From Ascochyta rabiei (Eukaryota; Ascomycota; Dothideomycetes; Pleosporales; Didymellaceae): a DNA stretch of 64,000 nucleotides. Location: positions 248,001 to 312,000 of the forward strand of contig NC_082421.1 of the NCBI RefSeq assembly GCF_004011695.2, given 5' to 3'. The position numbers were made by a program, and so were the translations under genes. Positions 1 through 46,100 of the stretch are shown here, piece after piece. Each line of letters opens with the position of its first letter. The stretch's first letter is position 1. The notes under the pieces were generated by a model. That model saw only the letters and a program-made list of their open reading frames with translations, was not told the DNA's origin and did no database searches.

Positions 1-1118
1 AATGAGATGTGTGGATGCAGTGTTCCGTTCCTGGTGTTGTTATGGAAGGAACTATGCACCACTGTGACGTAAAGAAGCATCATGAGAGGCACTACAACAT
101 GCGCTGATTCCGACACATAATCGTGACCTATGGGCAAATCGGCCAGGCTGAGCTAAATGGTCGGGCTGGAATTGTCACCAATCGCTTGCACAACCCGTAA
201 CAATGTTGTAGATGCAATCGATATCCCACCCGTCAATTTGTAACACTTGGGTGCTCGATTCTTGACAATTCCTATGATACATCAGGGAAGCCTGGGATGT
301 CCCTCTTCAATTATCCAAAACGCATTCAGCTCGCAAGAGGTGAAGATTCTCAGTCTTGAGCTTTTTGGATTCGGTGTTGACGGCCAAGGGTTGTGAAGTC
401 GAATCGAGGCCAGCAGGTGGAATGGGCCATGGTGCCTTTGGGCGCAAGTACCCCATCGCCACCTGCGAAACAATAACTTCCTAATGCAGCGTCGAAGCAT
501 CTCTGTTGCAGTGTGTGGATTGCTACATGGAGCTAACGCAACTGGCCCATGGCGCGGCTGTTGGTGTCGAGCCGTCGAACGCCGAATGGGGGCGGGAGTG
601 GAGAGGATGTCGATTCAACGGCAAGCTTCATTTGGGAGGCCCTCGTTTCTGCCATGTGAGGTCCTTGAACTGATTCTTTACTTCGTCCCTGAAGTGGTCC
701 AAGGCCGAGGGGCCGGTGCCTGCTGCAGTCAGCGAGGGACAGGTGTAATCGTGTGGAAGAACACACGGCCTAGTCCGTTCTTTGGCTCGTGGTCTGGGAT
801 CTTGTTGATCTTGCGGTAGGCTTTCTGAATCGCTCGGTTGAAGGTTGGACTGCGGATGAGCTGTTTCCGGGCGGGTCAGCGGACGGTGTGGTGGGGGGTG
901 TCGACGGAGCTGGACGTACTGCCGCGACGGCCCATGCCTGTGGCGTCTGTCAGTCTGATGCTTCGTTGCGCGCCGTGCGTGGCGGGAGCTCTACCTCGAC
1001 AAGTGCAAACCAGGGCGCCATGACGGTGTGCGCGCAAGTGCTCTACACTCGGTGGCTGCTTTCCAGCGCAGTCTGGGGCGTGCAGACACGGGTGGTGGTG
1101 TGAAGGCGGCCGTGGCGT

Positions 1119-1184
1119 GGAGGGAGGAGGGAGGAGGGAGGAGGGAGGAGGGAGGAGGGAGGAGGGAGGAGGGAGGAGGGAGGA
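1119..1184 (+). repeat. GGAGGGA heptamer microsatellite
   Basis: About nine uninterrupted copies of the 7-nt unit GGAGGGA, all guanines on the plus strand. The pattern contains many runs of two or three G and could fold as a G-quadruplex. It lies about 690 bp upstream of the phosphatase ATG. Confidence 0.9.
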
Positions 1185-1394
1185 GCGACGGGCCTCGGCG
1201 GCGAGCGGGAAGGCGGCACGGGCGGCTGGATGACGCCTTGGGCAGCCTGCGGTCTGACGGCAATGCCCCTCCACGGCACTGCGCACCCACCGCGTCCATG
1301 GCGGGACCTGCTTCCTGCACGGCTGGAGGAAAAAAGCTGGGTGGCAGATCATTGCCGTGCTGGGACTGCGCTGGACGTCTGGCACGCTCCCATC

Positions 1395-12781: not shown

Positions 12782-15700
12782 ATGGCAAGCTTTCCAGAAA
12801 CCTCAGATTCCTACCCCATTGCGGTGACCTCTTACGACACAGCGCTATGTGTGCTGCCACCAATCGAACAGTGCGAACACATCGACAGCTTACGCGAGCT
12901 TTACGACATGGCATACGGGAGATGGCCAGCTCATATTAACCTTGTTTATCCTTTTGTTTCACCCGAGCATCTGTCTCAAGCGCGACAGCAGATTCAAGCT
13001 CAGCTTCAAAGGAACGTGGACTCCAGTAGGACAAGGCGCATCAAGCTTGACTCGGCGGGGTTGATCAAGCAGCGACACAACAGCACAGCAATCGTCCAAG
13101 AGCCTCAAGGTTCTTCAGATGGACCTTTGAAAAAGCTTCGATCTTTAGCCTTGCAGGCCCTCGGTCACCGACCCAAACCGCACAATTTCCACTTGACGAT
13201 CGGTCAGACTGAAGATAATTCCGTGTCTTCGCTTGAGTTTCTGCTCTCTAAAGTGCGGCTACTGCCGACGCTGGAATTCGAAATCGGCTACTTGGCCATC
13301 CTGGTTCGCGAGCGGATGTCGGGAGAGCATTCGGTGAACCGGATGCGTTTGTGGGATTTGGTCAATGTTATTCCTCGAGGAACTGCAAAGATGACTGCTA
13401 TACCAGATTATTGGCTCAAATATCCCCTTGCTAGCTCTGCCGACATGTATCAAGACGCCGACAGGGATGATATGTCTGATTCAACGACAGCTTTCAGCCG
13501 TGCCATACAACCTGGTAGGACCTTCTTCTTCGACAAAACACTCAGTCGGTGGTCAAGGACGACAAACTTTGGCCGAATCCCTAACCAAACAGCGCCTCTC
13601 ACGGTATCAAGCTACAATGTCTTGGTCGACTCAGAATACCCTCCAGCACAAGACCGCGATCATCTACTTCTCAGTACCTTGCAATCGGACTCGGCAAAAG
13701 CAGACGTCTTGATCTTACAAGAAGTATCCGACTGCTTCCTGTCCTCTCTGTTAAACAACGCCAAAATTCAGAACCAGTACCCTTTCACTTCGCATGGACC
13801 ACCAAGCCAGTCGGATATTGGACCTTTGCCGAGTCTTCGGAATGTGATAGTGATTAGTAAATGGCCGTTCCGCTGGGAGTTGGTTCCTTTCCAAAGAAAG
13901 CACAAAGGTGCCATTGTTGCAGTATTCGACACTGTCGTGCCTGGTGGTTCTTTGATTGTCGCTGGTGTACACCTAACATGCGGCCTGACTGACGGCTCCG
14001 TTGCCGCGAAAAAGGTGCAGGCGCAGAGTTTAATCAGACATCTGACCCATCACTACCTTAATTCTCCATGGGTAATTGCTGGAGATTTCAACATCGCCAC
14101 ATCCACACACACGATACACCAAGCGCTACAGAATAAGTTGATCTCCAGCCAAACAAACAATACACTAGCTGCTATCGAAAGCCTGCTAAGTGAAGATGGG
14201 CTTGTAGATGCTTGGCTTGTCGCTCGAGATGAGCAGTGCAGTGAGGCGGATGGTGATGATGCTGATAGACTGTTCGATGGGGAGCAAGGCGCCACATTTG
14301 ACCCAAGGAACAATATGCTGGCGGCGGCGACTTCTGTAACATCCCACAACCGACCTCAACGATACGACCGTATCCTTGTTCGGCCACAGAGGGCATTGCG
14401 TATTACTGGCTTCAACATGTTCGGGCTTCCTGCAGAACTAAATGGGGCTAGCGTAGTTCCTAGCGATCACTACGGAGTGAGAGCTTCTTTGCAGCTTTTG
14501 AAGCCGACTGAACAGCTGTCTCCTGATCATTGCGAGACACTCAATAGCCTCAGAGTGGAGCTTCGTCGAGTTCCTCACCTAGCTACTCGGGAACTGGTCT
14601 CCGTTCTCTCAAGACATTGCATGTTCCTGACTGAGGAAGAGAACACGAGACGTCGATTAGCTTTCGTTTTACTTGAGGAAGTAGTTCTTGAAAAGTCGCA
14701 GAAGGGGTACCCAAACACAGCAGATATACCGCTCGTTATGGTGGCAGTGGGCTCACATGCGATGAATGTGGACACCGCGGGTTCCGACATCGACTGCCTT
14801 TGCATCGGTACCATAAGCTCAAAAACCTTCTTCAAGCTTGTGCGCCAACGACTGCATAAGGCTGAAAGCCAAGGTATTCGCATACTCCGGAAAGTCGAGG
14901 CAAGTACAGGAACCATGCTCGAGCTTTCAGTCAACGGTGTTCCCATGGACCTACAGTATTGTCCAGCAGCCCGAGTTGTGGAAAGGTAACTACAGATTTC
15001 GTTGTTATTGACCATGTGCTGACCTCAATAGATGGTTTGAGTTTGACAATTTGCCTGCGTCTGACCCGATCTTCAATTTGTCGATTCTCTCTCTGCGGAA
15101 ACTGAAGCCTTACCGTGATCTGCTGTACATCAAGCGTACCATACCGGACCATGCTACCTTCAGCTTGGCATATCGATGCATCAAGCTCTGGGCCACGCAG
15201 CGTGGCATCTACTCGTCTAAGTTTGGCTTCCTGGGTGGCGTGCACATCACTCTAATGCTTTCTTGGGTTTACAAACGGATTGCTCACGACATCGACACTC
15301 AAAATTCAAGTCCCATTAGAACTGATGACTTGGTGACATCTTTCTTTCACTATTACGCGAACTTCAATTGGGTAGATGACATCGTATTCGACGCCTTCTT
15401 TCACAAGCAGAAACCACGCTATCATCGCACCGCGCGAGAGCCTATGGTGGTGCTTGGTTTCCACGCGCCAAATTCCAATGTTGCACATACTTCTACAGTA
15501 TCTGGACTGTCACTACTTGTACAGGAGTTCAAGTCCGCAAGTCTACGATTATCGGAGCCCGGTATGACTTGGCAAGACTTTTTCGAGCCACCTGGCATGC
15601 ATAGCTTCACTGGCATGGACCTTGGCGAGACACAGTTCTTACAGCTTTACAGAAGCTATGTAAGTATCGACATACAGTTCTGGGGTCGTACCTTGACGAA

Positions 15701-16554
15701 AGGCAAGAGCCTAGTCGGTTGGGTGGAGTCTCGATGTCTATCGTTGGTTGTTGGTAAATGAACACCCTCTCCGCAAGTGCGTACAGCGACTAACGTGACC
15801 AGATATCAACAAGTTTTTCTCCAACACTGAAGTTCGATTATGGCCCGCACGCTTCACGAAGTCTGGCTCAACGGCTACCAGTGACAACAATGATTACCAT
15901 GGTTGCTATCTTATCGGCCTTCAGAAGGCCACAACCGTGCCATTGGGTATGAGCAGCTCTGATGAGCGGAGAGCAGCAAAGCAGTCTCTGGAGAAGGTGA
16001 TCGATAGGTTTCTCACTCAGCTCCGAATGGACGAGAAGAACTACGATACAAGCACATCCTGGATTGATGCTTCGCTGACCACACAACACGACATCCAGAC
16101 CCGAGAGCTCCGACTGGACGACCGTGAATGGGGTGACTATGCAATGGAGATTGAGCCCGACTCGGACGACGAAGAAGGATTGGACGAGTTAGACGATGAA
16201 GACGCCGACCTTCCCAAGCTGCCTGTCCGATCTAAACCCAGTTCAACATCGACACCCGTGTCTACTACAAAGCTGCGACCTGCCTCCGATGTACTCAATC
16301 GACTACGCTGGGATCCGAAGCTTGATCCAGCTGACTACATTATTGGCTACGAAGACCGCTTCCTTGGCACGCGAGAAACCAGTCTAGAGAAGTGGAAGAC
16401 TGAACAAACAGATGAGGAATTCATCCCGCAACACCGCATCTTGTACTTCCGACGGAAGTTCAATAATGAGGGAGATGGTAGAGGGGAGCTTATCTGGGAA
16501 CGAGCAACAAGAATCGATAAGATATTCGGTAGCGGCGCTGGTTTTGGATCGTAA
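12782..16554 (+). CDS. Four-domain RNA-end processing protein: 2H phosphoesterase + EEP nuclease + poly(A) polymerase + MJ1316
   Basis: Three exons (12782-14985, 15032-15753, 15803-16554) give 1225 residues; phases 2 and 1 check. In order: (1) 2H/2'-5' RNA ligase-like domain, about 15-200, with H51-I-N-L and H137-L-T-I; (2) endonuclease/exonuclease/phosphatase domain, about 272-572, with N279, E314, H397, GDFN (D435, N437), D529 and SDH (561-563), so catalytically complete; (3) poly(A)-polymerase core, about 585-1000, with GS..DID (G657, S658, D669, D671), third acidic D723, the central domain FGFLGGVHI and an RNA-binding-like region; (4) acidic linker, then the MJ1316 (DUF504) domain at about 1135-1217. 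MJ1316 is predicted in the literature to recognise cyclic-phosphate RNA ends. The combination implies sensing, trimming and re-tailing of damaged or cleaved RNA. No experimental role is known to me. Confidence 0.92.
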
Positions 16555-40865: not shown

Positions 40866-42937
40866 ATGTTTCGCATACGTCCGTCGATACCACGCCTGGG
40901 TCCACGTTCCCTGGAAAGCAGTAGAGCATGGATCTCGAGCTCGGCGTCGGTGTCAGCTGGCTCAAAGGCCGGCATGATGTCTCATTGGACTCCAGAGAAG
41001 CTGGCGACGACTGAGAAGTACCCGCTCACGCTGGAGTTGTTCGACAAGATGCATCCAAACACCGAAGAGCCTGCCAAAAAGATGCAACAGAGCCAATCTC
41101 GGGCGAAGAAGAAATCCATAACGACCCGCCATGCGAGAACACAGATTGTAAGTCCAGACCTATGTGGTACGTCGCGTCTGGAGCAGCAGCTGGTGGAGAT
41201 TGTGCATGTGCTGACACCGGCGGCCTCCCAGATGACGTCTTCGCGTATTACGGCAAGAGCCTGGAGATACACAGAGGGTGCGACATCCTCGACATCAACC
41301 CTGGCGCCGGCCTGTGGTCGCAGAAGCTGCACGCCTTCCTCCAACCGCGCAGCCATGTCCTTCTAGAGCCGAACCCCGACCGATTCCGTTCGTTCCTCGA
41401 CCCCCTGCTCAACGCGCCCGGCTCCAAGTACAAGCTCGTGCAAAAGGACACCACCGAGCTGCAGTCGTACACGCAGCTCGTAGACGAAGGCGTGTTTCCG
41501 CACCAAACCCGCATCGACCCCGACGACGGCAGCAGGCAGGAAGTGAACACCACCCTGCTGGTCACCGGAATGCTGGCGTGGGACCCAACGCTGCCCGGCA
41601 TGGCATTCGACTCCATGGCGAAGCAGCTGTACAATTTCTTCGCTTCCGCCGTCCGGACCAACGAACTGTTCCACGCCTATGGTCGCGTGCGGACGCTTCT
41701 GTGGATGGCAGCGGACGACTTCAGGCCGCTGTTGGCCGAGTCCTCGGCTCAGTTTGCAAAGGGCAACTGTTTGTTGGAGATGACCCACGACACGCAGCAA
41801 GTCGTGAATGGACCGCGCTCGAAACGAGGAATGGGCAAGGGCACTTCTGGTCGCGAGCCGCAATACGAGATCGAGAGCATGATCGGAGCACTCCGGAGGG
41901 GAAGAGAGAATGGCATGCCCCTGCCCACACATCGCCAAGACACCATCCACCAGATCGCTGCTGAGATTGAAGAATTAACAGCCGGCACCGGCCGGACCAG
42001 GTACACATGGCTCCATGACTACCTTGTCGCGAAGCACCACGAAGGGAACAGCGCAATCGGGATGCTGCCCGACTCCTTCTTTACTCACGCGGATGAAGCC
42101 AAAGCTGTGCAGGCAAAGTACCCAGATCTGGACCTGGAAGCTATGGGCAATGCAAGGGTGAGCGGCGTACGACGTGTCGGTAGTTTTTGGGCGGATAAGA
42201 AAGACCACCCCGGCCGTGAAGAAGTTCAGAGCTATGTCGTCACCAAGGCGGCCGACCGCGCCCTGGTCACTAAGAAAGAGAGCATAGAAGCCATCGCGGA
42301 CATAGGCGAGGAGATGTACCACGCCGAATGCCGCGCGCTCCGCATGTCTCCAGGTCCCGAAAAAGACGCTCTCCTCAAAGAGATTGCAGACCTCGAGACC
42401 AAGTGGAACAAGCCACTGGCCAAGATAGGCGTCAACTACAGAACCACGCCCCACTCTGTCCTCGACGACCGCCTGAGCTTGCGCTCCCCGCCCTACCCAC
42501 GTCTGCAGTGGGACCGCCGCCCCTTCGAACCCCTCACCATGCACCCAGACGAAGCCTGGCCCCCGACCCGCCTGTCCCTCATCTCCAGCACCCCCTTCCC
42601 GCGCCCCGCCGGCCAGACTGCAGACTGGTACGAGTGGGTGCAGGACTTCCTCTACGGCCTCTTCTCAATGGGCTCGCAGTCGCTGCCAGAGGCCCTTGAC
42701 AAGATGCAGCACGGCGCCTCGCAGATCATCGACTCGTGTCCCAGCCTGCGCGACCCGGATAAAGGCGGCAGACTGAACATGCGCCATCTCAGGGTCCGCA
42801 TGCTGACTGCCGAGATGATCGAGCAGCTTGTCCTGGCCTATCGCGATTGGCCCTTCAAAGAGCCTGGGAGCGACCATAATAGGTATTTCCGGTGGAAGGG
42901 CATGAACAAGGGTGGTGATAAATTCGGGGGCATGTAG
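40866..42937 (+). CDS. Mitochondrial transcription factor Mtf1-like / rRNA adenine dimethylase family
   Basis: Exons 40866-41166 and 41232-42937 (donor GTACGT, branch GCTGAC, acceptor CCCAG; phase 1) give 668 residues. The N-terminus is Arg/Ser-rich, a likely mitochondrial presequence. The SAM-fold core starts with DILDINPGAGLWSQKL (motif I), VLLEPNPDRF (motif II) and TGMLAWDP (motif IV-like); the KsgA/Dim1 catalytic N-L-P-Y type motif is not conserved, as expected for Mtf1-type factors that bind the mitochondrial RNA polymerase rather than methylate. About 300 C-terminal residues extend past the family core. Ends 194 nt from convergent CWH43. Confidence 0.8.
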
Positions 42938-43131: not shown

Positions 43132-46100
43132 CTAGGCATAGTATCTCGGCTCATTGAACACGTGGTATCTGTGGCCTCTTACGCCCTCGCCCTTGAACAA
43201 GTCCGGGAACCTGAGGCCCGGCGCGACCTGGCTCTCGTGGATGAGCTCGTGTCCGTTCTCGGGCTGGTCGACGACGAACTTGCCGACCTGTGTGGGGTGC
43301 GTTAGTGGTTCGGTTCTACACGGAACAGAATTGAAAAAGAGAAGATAGGAACGTACCTGCAGCTCTGTGTCTGTGATTGTGTGTCTGCTCACCCGCGCGT
43401 ATCCCGTGCGCTTCAGGCCCTTGTACAGAATGTACTCGCACCACCTGTCCCAGTCGGTGGGGTCGATATCCTTCATGTCGCTCTTAGCGCCGACGTACGT
43501 GTTGTAGTTGCCCTCGCCCGGCTTAATGACCAGGTACGAGAGCAGGATGGCCGGGCGTGGCGTGGCTTTCATGCGCTCGGCCAGGTACTCGCTCTGCAGC
43601 CGGCGGTCTTCCGGATCTTCTTCCTGGCCCGAGTGGAAGACGAAGATGTCGACGAGGGTGCCGTACGCGTCGATGGTGGCTTCGATCGCGGGCGCTAGCT
43701 CGCCCACAGGAGAAGGGAGGAGATGGTGCGTTGAGTTCACGATCGGGAACTTGGAAAGCAGCGCCGAGCCCCAAGTGTGCTTATTTGGACCCGGACCAAA
43801 GTCGACGTACATACCCAGATCTTCAGCAAGGAATTGGGTGCTGTCTCGGTTGCCCATGATGATGCGCTGGAGGTCAGATTCGAGGAGGCCAATGACATCG
43901 ACTTCGAGCTCTTTGATCAGGTCGCGCATGCGGTACTCGGACGACCACATGTCGTTGTCGAGAGAAAAGTGGATTGTCCAGATGCCAGCTGTGATAGACT
44001 TGGTCTCGGGATGGTAAGGTTTGTAGTCGTAGGATGGGAAGCGGAGGAAGGCGGTTGCAATAGCGAGAAGCTCGAGGAAGCCGAGGACGTACAGGTAGTA
44101 CGAGCGCTGCCTGCTTGCAGCAGCAGTAACAGCAGGCTTGCCCTTGTAGCTCTTCAGAGCAGGTGGCTGAGCAGAAAGACTGAAGATACCTGCGCCGATG
44201 AGGAGCATCATGGTGGTCATGACCCAGTCAGTGCGTTCACGGACGAGATGACCACCAGGGACAAAAGCGTAGGCGACGACCCAAACGTGGAAAAGGACCA
44301 TGAAGTTGTAGACTAAGAAGCCGAGACCGAAAGTCTTAGCTGGGGAGTGGCGAGCGGCCTGAGAAATGAGGGCTGGAGCGACAGCCATTGTGTAGACAGC
44401 CGTGATCAGTGCTCCATAGTATCCAGTCCAGTGCTTTGAAGTGGTCAAAACGGCAGCGCCAATGGAGCCTACGCCGTAGAACGCCCACGAGCGTGACAAG
44501 CTTGGTGCAAACAGACCAACTATGAGTCCGAGACCCATAGCCAGCAGAGTGACCGCACCGTGGGGAACGGCAAGCGGGCCTCGGACAGGATAACCTTCCC
44601 ACACCCACGAAATCATGGTACTGGAGTCCGACAACAAGGAGTGCATAGCGAAGAAGAGGCCCGCAAGGCCGAAAGCGGAGAGGGTGGAGGAACCCTTGGT
44701 AGGACCAGGGGCGGGCAAGTCAGCGCCAGAGCTAGCAGTACCCCTTGTGGACCACAGGATAGCAATGACAGCAACAGCAAGGCCAGTCTTGTTCCAGCCA
44801 CCGTTTGCCTCATGCATAATTGGCCAGATAGGGTTGTTTGTGTAGAAGGCGAACTTGGCGACGCTAGACGCAATCAAACCAAGAGAAAACGCCGAGATCC
44901 TTGCCTCTAACCGATGAGGCTGTGATCTCTCTCCGTAGAAGGTTGCAGCCCAGGACAGGCAAGCCATCCAAACACCGAAGCCAGCTGAAAAGAGACGGTT
45001 TTCGGGGGACTTGGCGAGGAAAGAGAGTAGCCCGGAGAGCGATAGCAGGTGACAAATCCGGACATGGCGAACAATGAGGAAGCGGAGCGATCGTACGCAG
45101 AGCAGGAACGGAGAGATGGTGCTCATGACCATGACTTCGTAGCCTGAGATACCCATGTGCCAGAGGGGGAAGTCTGGAAAGTTAGTTTTGGAATTTTGTA
45201 GCAGAGTGAATGCACTCACACCAGACACACACCCCAAGAGCAGTCAGCATGGACCAGAAGACAAACTGGTATTGTTAGTTTTATCGTTGGCGAGGTTTTG
45301 TGACAGACTTGCCCCCGTGTAAACATCGGCGGCCGCATCGAGGAAGCCAGCCCAGGAAAAAGCACCGGAGAAGACAGTGCCGATCTCCTTGTCCTTTCTG
45401 CACAAGCATTAGTATAGCAACGGTAAGGGAGGCCTGAAAGACGTACTCTTTCTCAAGGACGGCGTCGGAAATGGCTTTGTTGCCAGCACTAGAAGAGACA
45501 GCAGATCAGAAGAGGTCGTGGAACATTTGCATTCGTGAGGGGCGTCTATCTATATCGGGAGCCGTGGAACGTACCCGCGAGATACACCTCGGACATCCTT
45601 CACAACGATTTCAAAGTTGGCAAACTCAATCATGGTGACTGCGTCGAATGCTACATCGAGCAGAACAAGTGACCATTCGAAGAAGGCGTAGATGGTGTAG
45701 GCTGTAGGTGGTCAATCCGGGTCTAGAAGCCGGTGTAGCTGTGACATACCTCCAGGAATGCGGTGCACTTTGTGTTGAATGAAGAAGTAAACGAGTGGCA
45801 CCAGTGTGGCGAAGAAGGAGCCGGCAAAGAGCTTCCTGTATTTGATAGCGGTGGGGTTGCGAGGGCTCAGGGCGAAGCAGCCGAGGGTCCACGGCAGGGT
45901 AGCCACCAGATATGAGATCATGAAGATGTCGTGCCAGTCATGGTCGTCAGTCGAGGTTACGTATGTCCATCCTCCACAGGTCAGTGTTCGGAAGATACCC
46001 ACGCCAGCGACGAGTTTAGGGAGGGTCGAGTTTGGTCGGCGTGTGAGGATGTACCAGAGGCCCACGAGGGCGAGCCGAGGACCTGATCACGGTAAGCTTT

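Follow-up and report, generated by a model that had tools for sequence, protein, structure and literature searches.

A gene on the forward strand of a 64,000-nucleotide stretch of the Ascochyta rabiei genome (hereafter the window; contig NC_082421.1, positions 248,001 to 312,000 of assembly GCF_004011695.2) is predicted to encode a protein in which a 2H phosphoesterase domain, an EEP nuclease domain, a poly(A) polymerase (PAP) unit and an MJ1316 domain follow one another in a single chain. We propose, with a probability that we place at roughly one half, that this protein is an RNA 3′-end heal-and-tail enzyme, which would recognize a phosphate-blocked 3′ end, expose a 3′-OH and add nucleotides to it. 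A more demanding version, in which one polypeptide would perform a complete ligase-independent rescue by recognizing a 2′,3′-cyclic-phosphate end, opening it, removing the phosphate and polyadenylating the product, is possible on the domain content, but we think the odds lean against it.

The four-domain architecture, as put forward in an original prediction made from the nucleotide sequence, was recovered when the spliced protein was compared with Pfam: the profiles 2_5_RNA_ligase2, Exo_endo_phos, PAP_central and MJ1316 all matched, such that both the 2H and the MJ1316 similarities are detectable. Among PDB sequences, the polymerase region matched PAP-gamma (4lt6, E 3.6e-23) across both the catalytic lobe and the central domain, and the nine distinct sequences found, down to Pla1 (7q72) at 2.4e-8, are all named poly(A) polymerases. 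Alignment to PAP-gamma locates the pattern GS..DID..MDL at G657-S658, D669/D671 and D723, residues that we take to be the catalytic nucleotidyltransferase triad; triad and central domain, the hallmarks of canonical poly(A) polymerases, are thus both present, and the PAP_NTPase match alone falls under its cut-off (24.4 bits vs 27). In the EEP domain we located N279, E314, H397, D435/N437, D529 and D562/H563, presumably the catalytic residues of this fold, and the earlier view that both active sites are complete holds accordingly. Six-frame searches of the organism's own genome (40.9 Mb, 23 contigs) returned two PAP_central matches, one on contig C11 at 1.8e-62, presumably the housekeeping poly(A) polymerase, and the four-domain gene itself at 1.4e-12.

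These polymerase matches also bear on a different function, in which the nucleotidyltransferase would make, and the 2H and EEP domains destroy, a 2′-5′ or other small non-templated oligonucleotide signal. OAS, AKAP7 and PDE12 make or destroy such oligonucleotides as separate proteins, the 2H, EEP and polymerase-beta-type nucleotidyltransferase folds are those of enzymes of this type, and exon 2 weakly matches a CBASS cyclase in NCBIfam (E 0.0054, 15.9 bits vs a cut-off of 200). The nucleotidyltransferase lobe and central domain match poly(A) polymerases far better, however (3.6e-23), and we regard a signaling role as very unlikely.

The gene model itself requires two short introns. The coding sequence is join(12782..14985, 15032..15753, 15803..16554) on the forward strand, with the TAA stop codon ending at 16554, and once the introns are removed the extent of 12782-16554 and the length of 1225 amino acids originally given are reproduced exactly. 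The single uninterrupted reading frame also described for this gene gave way to three exons in three frames: the frame that starts at 12782 closes at 14989 (735 codons) and is followed by two more open frames, each in another phase. The intron pair was picked by splice-site consensus among many formally possible junction pairs listed. Adjacent but separate genes might have been misjoined by such a model, given that the introns are inferred from sequence alone and that MJ1316 is the only Pfam domain of the last exon. The polymerase unit runs across intron 1, however, with its catalytic lobe in exon 1 and its central domain in exon 2, and a single gene rather than several is therefore likely. 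Consensus sites are good at both introns, and codon usage ranked the expected frame first in all seven coding segments scored (exon 3 supplied three, of which two overlap), including the portion of exon 3 ahead of its first ATG. This last test gives the three-exon model weak support, as intron 1, short as it is, has a frame with an equally good score (-0.043) and the training set consisted of just four open reading frames from the window. Overall, we consider misjoined genes highly improbable.

Table 1 Features of the four-domain gene, in window coordinates.
Feature	Position	Residues	Strand	Evidence or content
Exon 1	12782..14985		+	ATG, 2H domain, EEP domain, PAP catalytic (nucleotidyltransferase) lobe; gene model, Pfam
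2H domain (2_5_RNA_ligase2, PF13563)	12857..13315	26-178	+	Pfam E 8.1e-24
EEP domain (Exo_endo_phos, PF03372)	13610..14470	277-563	+	Pfam E 2e-9
PAP nucleotidyltransferase lobe (PAP_NTPase)	14582..14962	601-727	+	Pfam 3.1e-5; PAP-gamma 4lt6 alignment
Intron 1	14986..15031		+	46 nt, GTAACT..TAG
Exon 2	15032..15753		+	PAP central domain, start of possible PAP RNA-binding domain; gene model, Pfam
PAP_central	15156..15587	777-920	+	Pfam E 1.5e-12
Intron 2	15754..15802		+	49 nt, GTAAAT..CTAAC..CAG (CTAAC upstream of CAG)
Exon 3	15803..16554		+	Remainder of possible RNA-binding region, acidic linker, MJ1316 domain, stop; gene model, Pfam
MJ1316 domain (PF04457)	16276..16503	1134-1209	+	Pfam E 1.9e-19

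The MJ1316 domain was compared with archaeal homologs in an alignment of 27 sequences, comprising the fungal one and 26 from archaea of a single phylum, that of Methanocella. Five columns (R32, I54, P55, H57 and R58) are invariant in all 27 rows and correspond to R1161 and I1183-P1184-x-H1186-R1187 of the fungal protein; these conserved residues are candidates for binding the RNA end. In the part encoded by window positions 16348-16437, archaea and the fungus share a Tyr conserved in nearly every sequence, three residues ahead of the invariant Arg, and the invariant Ile-Pro-x-His-Arg. The alignment left out five of the 30 clustered archaeal frames, namely the near-identical L056, L075 and L082, together with L083, whose genuine MJ1316 closes a far longer open frame, and L065, whose clustered frame is not MJ1316, although the locus has MJ1316. 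A search by sequence found no structure of an MJ1316 domain; modeling of the domain gave a structure of moderate quality. Across the whole genome of A. rabiei, MJ1316 matched once, in the four-domain gene; when genome contigs were scanned with this part of the protein, a Methanocella MJ1316 was the one relative to turn up, and two scans of viral contigs yielded no relative.

In the mechanism we envisage, the MJ1316 domain would grip an RNA on whose 3′ terminus a metal-independent RNase has left a blocking 2′,3′-cyclic phosphate or phosphate. The 2H domain would then open the cyclic phosphate or might merely bind it, because its first motif is HIN. The EEP domain would strip the remaining phosphate, as ANGEL2 does, or the terminal nucleotide, leaving a 3′-OH to which the PAP unit of the same chain would add nucleotides, with A the likeliest; the tail would mark the RNA either for salvage or for decay. 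Parts of this scheme have precedents in separate proteins. PMC6277466 states that poly(A) polymerase tails 3′-OH rather than cyclic-phosphate ends, and PMC13247085 reports that ANGEL2 converts a cyclic phosphate to 2′,3′-OH by way of a 2′-phosphate. PMC9525292 describes how loss of Angel or ANGEL2 in flies and mice causes some mitochondrial RNAs to retain 3′ phosphates and to be poorly polyadenylated, and how animal mitochondria split phosphate removal and tailing between two separate proteins, ANGEL2 and MTPAP. PMC6514570, in turn, presents the MJ1316 domain as a recognizer of 2′,3′-cyclic ends that in eukaryotes is fused to RNA-repair domains in diverse ways. Given the PAP, ANGEL2 and MJ1316 precedents together, recognition, opening, dephosphorylation and tailing would be the most economical account of the protein.

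Two related schemes draw on the same domains. In the first, the protein would edit poly(A) tails, with the PAP unit adding and the EEP domain, as a CCR4/PDE12-type exonuclease, trimming the tail, while the 2H and MJ1316 domains would just target particular RNAs. The EEP domain opens with the motif SYNVL, which resembles SYNIL in a CCR4-like protein of the same genome (L009; tblastn E only 0.77); PMC13247085 and PMC12265940 describe its CCR4 relatives as deadenylases, and the latter presents the Angel proteins as homologous to these EEP-type enzymes. Such an editor would leave MJ1316 and 2H unexplained, however, the former being tied by prediction to cyclic ends, and we judge it unlikely. In the second scheme, the protein would be a decay adaptor that tails RNase-cleaved fragments for the exosome, the phosphate-removing domains only giving access. 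TRAMP is the model for tailing fragments in this way, and the chemistry would be identical to that of healing and tailing; the sequence cannot distinguish decay from salvage. PMC12265940 notes that cyclic ends are the predicted outcome of no-go and non-stop cleavage and that Angel1 works in non-stop decay, but also that Angel1 depletion gave no detected cyclic-phosphate build-up. A dedicated decay adaptor is, in our assessment, distinctly unlikely.

Several observations weigh against the heal-and-tail interpretation. The first 2H motif, H51-I-N53 (12932-12940), reads HIN rather than His-x-Ser/Thr, and the domain, used as a single-sequence query, gave no 2H match among PDB sequences. The class of the EEP domain is not placed by sequence, as the best PDB match has an E-value of 0.2 and the best NCBIfam match, exonuclease III, lies far below its cut-off (E 0.021); enzymes of this fold also include deadenylases and DNA nucleases. 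A C-terminal RNA-binding domain of the PAP type was not detected by sequence, with no PDB match for a query one residue short, and this region aligned to the organism's other PAP with a score of 26, vs a shuffle mean of 28.4 (701 of 1000 shuffles reach 26). The sensing of abnormal ends rests on a role predicted for MJ1316, the correspondence between the order of the enzymatic domains (2H, EEP, PAP) and that of the proposed reactions is suggestive only, and the four-domain fusion is known here from a single genome, the one fungal genome in the collections searched. Archaeal gene order gives a 2H-MJ1316 unit no support either, because none of 50 genomes (the first 50 of 134 with MJ1316, with distances judged by eye) has a 2H gene less than 10 kb from MJ1316, although 48 of them have 2H; the two genes share a contig in 17, at 11 kb in the nearest case (G101), and occupy different contigs in the remainder. 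Of the putatively self-contained machine originally envisaged, which would sense RNAs with abnormal 3′ ends, clean them and re-tail them, the four domains and the RNA 3′-end theme stand, and cleaning followed by re-tailing is chemically coherent, with precedents in separate proteins (ANGEL2; 3′ phosphates stop polyadenylation); the atypical 2H motif and the archaeal gene order tell against it. An archaeal operon of 2H, nucleotidyltransferase and MJ1316 genes, which we had expected, was unsupported in the Methanocella phylum, where neighboring nucleotidyltransferases were not searched for.

The second 2H motif, H137-L-T139 (13190-13198), conforms to His-x-Ser/Thr, and a profile of the three 2H domains found above cut-off in the A. 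rabiei genome matches PDB 2d4g (E 2.5e-5). We class the domain as one of the 2H fold, and as a putative 2H enzyme. Its nearest paralog, 32% identical in alignment, has the motif RWP-HINL-YPF in common with it and HLS as its second motif, whereas the third gene is 20% identical in alignment and has the motifs HLT and HWT. As HIN occurs in two genes of this genome, it is no private decay of the four-domain gene, to judge from these alignments. An HIN-type 2H domain may or may not cleave cyclic phosphates. The nearest paralog stands head to head with the stronger PAP gene, with inferred start codons at C11:1020992 (reverse strand) and C11:1021386 (forward strand), 393 bp apart (loci L003 and L005). 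This pair, noticed after the fact and in one genome, suggests an independent second link between 2H and PAP. Other RNA-end enzymes were also found elsewhere in the genome, including matches to a Trl1-type cyclic phosphodiesterase (CPD; 1.6e-83) and to Tpt1 (3.7e-57). Because these and the stronger PAP lie elsewhere, the roles of Trl1-type CPD, Tpt1 and housekeeping-type PAP are already filled. An RtcB-like frame of 463 codons with three matching pieces (best 3.3e-19) was observed at C2:2055853-2057124, in a genome that also has the Trl1-type CPD.

Comparison with known systems places the protein among several partial counterparts. LENG9 of vertebrates has a 2H domain and is not known to have an EEP or PAP domain; it also has a CCCH zinc finger, whereas the four-domain protein has no CCCH match in Pfam at E<=1. 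Trl1 tRNA ligase has ligase and kinase domains, and its CPD is of another Pfam family than the 2H domain here. Canonical PAPs (PAP-gamma, Pla1) have the triad-bearing catalytic lobe and the central domain in common with the fungal protein; unlike in these enzymes, the PAP unit here is fused to three other domains, and its RNA-binding domain is only possible. The 2H domain resembles the CPD module of Trl1, which PMC13247085 treats as 2H-type, and Usb1, a 2H-type phosphodiesterase acting on cyclic ends according to PMC6277466. ANGEL2 and ANGEL1 are EEP (PF03372) proteins which act on 2′,3′-cyclic phosphate, as the EEP domain here might, but are separate from the polymerase. PMC13247085 ascribes to the ANGEL2-type cyclic phosphatase an occluding active-site loop; a single-sequence structure model of exon 1 reached a mean predicted local distance difference test (pLDDT) score of 32.7. 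Eukaryotic fusions of MJ1316 to RNA-repair domains are already reported in PMC6514570, where those of Burroughs & Aravind 2016 are cited and, likewise, combine MJ1316 with RNA-end enzymes in one chain and are predicted to act in RNA repair. The exact 2H-EEP-PAP-MJ1316 architecture has probably been noticed computationally before; no study of it, experimental or other, is among the literature matches listed, which may have missed the spelling "poly(A) polymerase".

Of the 294 genomes of the Methanocella phylum that were searched, 134 have MJ1316; the frame that holds it measures 77-211 codons in 133 of these and about 953 codons in one. In this last case (L083, 2397-5255, forward strand), a genuine MJ1316 stands at the end of a 952-953-codon open frame, which may be a real fusion or merely an open upstream frame. 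In 40 hand-chosen neighborhoods out of the 134 (L048-L087), an ArsR-type regulator lies near MJ1316 in 21 (e.g., L054 4486-5249; PF09824 in the one member scanned). The regulator is on the MJ1316 strand in 19 of these 21, overlapping it in 16 and within 18 bases in three when measured from first start codons. A gene that we take to be argininosuccinate-lyase-like is present in 11 of the 40 neighborhoods and a GatD-like gene (one member scanned) in nine. In the A. rabiei window, three scanned neighbors encode an FkbM-like methyltransferase, ThuA and DUF3533, all unrelated to the four-domain gene. Farther away, a 591-amino-acid frame (41162-42937, forward strand) weakly matches rRNA adenine dimethylase at a score under the cut-off (4.9e-4), and a PGAP2IP-type membrane protein, presumably of the CWH43 kind, carries its own EEP-like domain (43132-45237, reverse strand; PF23226, 4.5e-120).

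Cyclic-phosphate ends, which are unusable by poly(A) polymerases, are produced by many RNases and ribotoxins, and the repair routes for such RNAs rejoin the pieces, to our knowledge. If our interpretation is correct, a heal-and-tail protein would represent another fate for RNAs with cyclic-phosphate ends, and the predicted function of MJ1316 would become directly testable in one purified protein.
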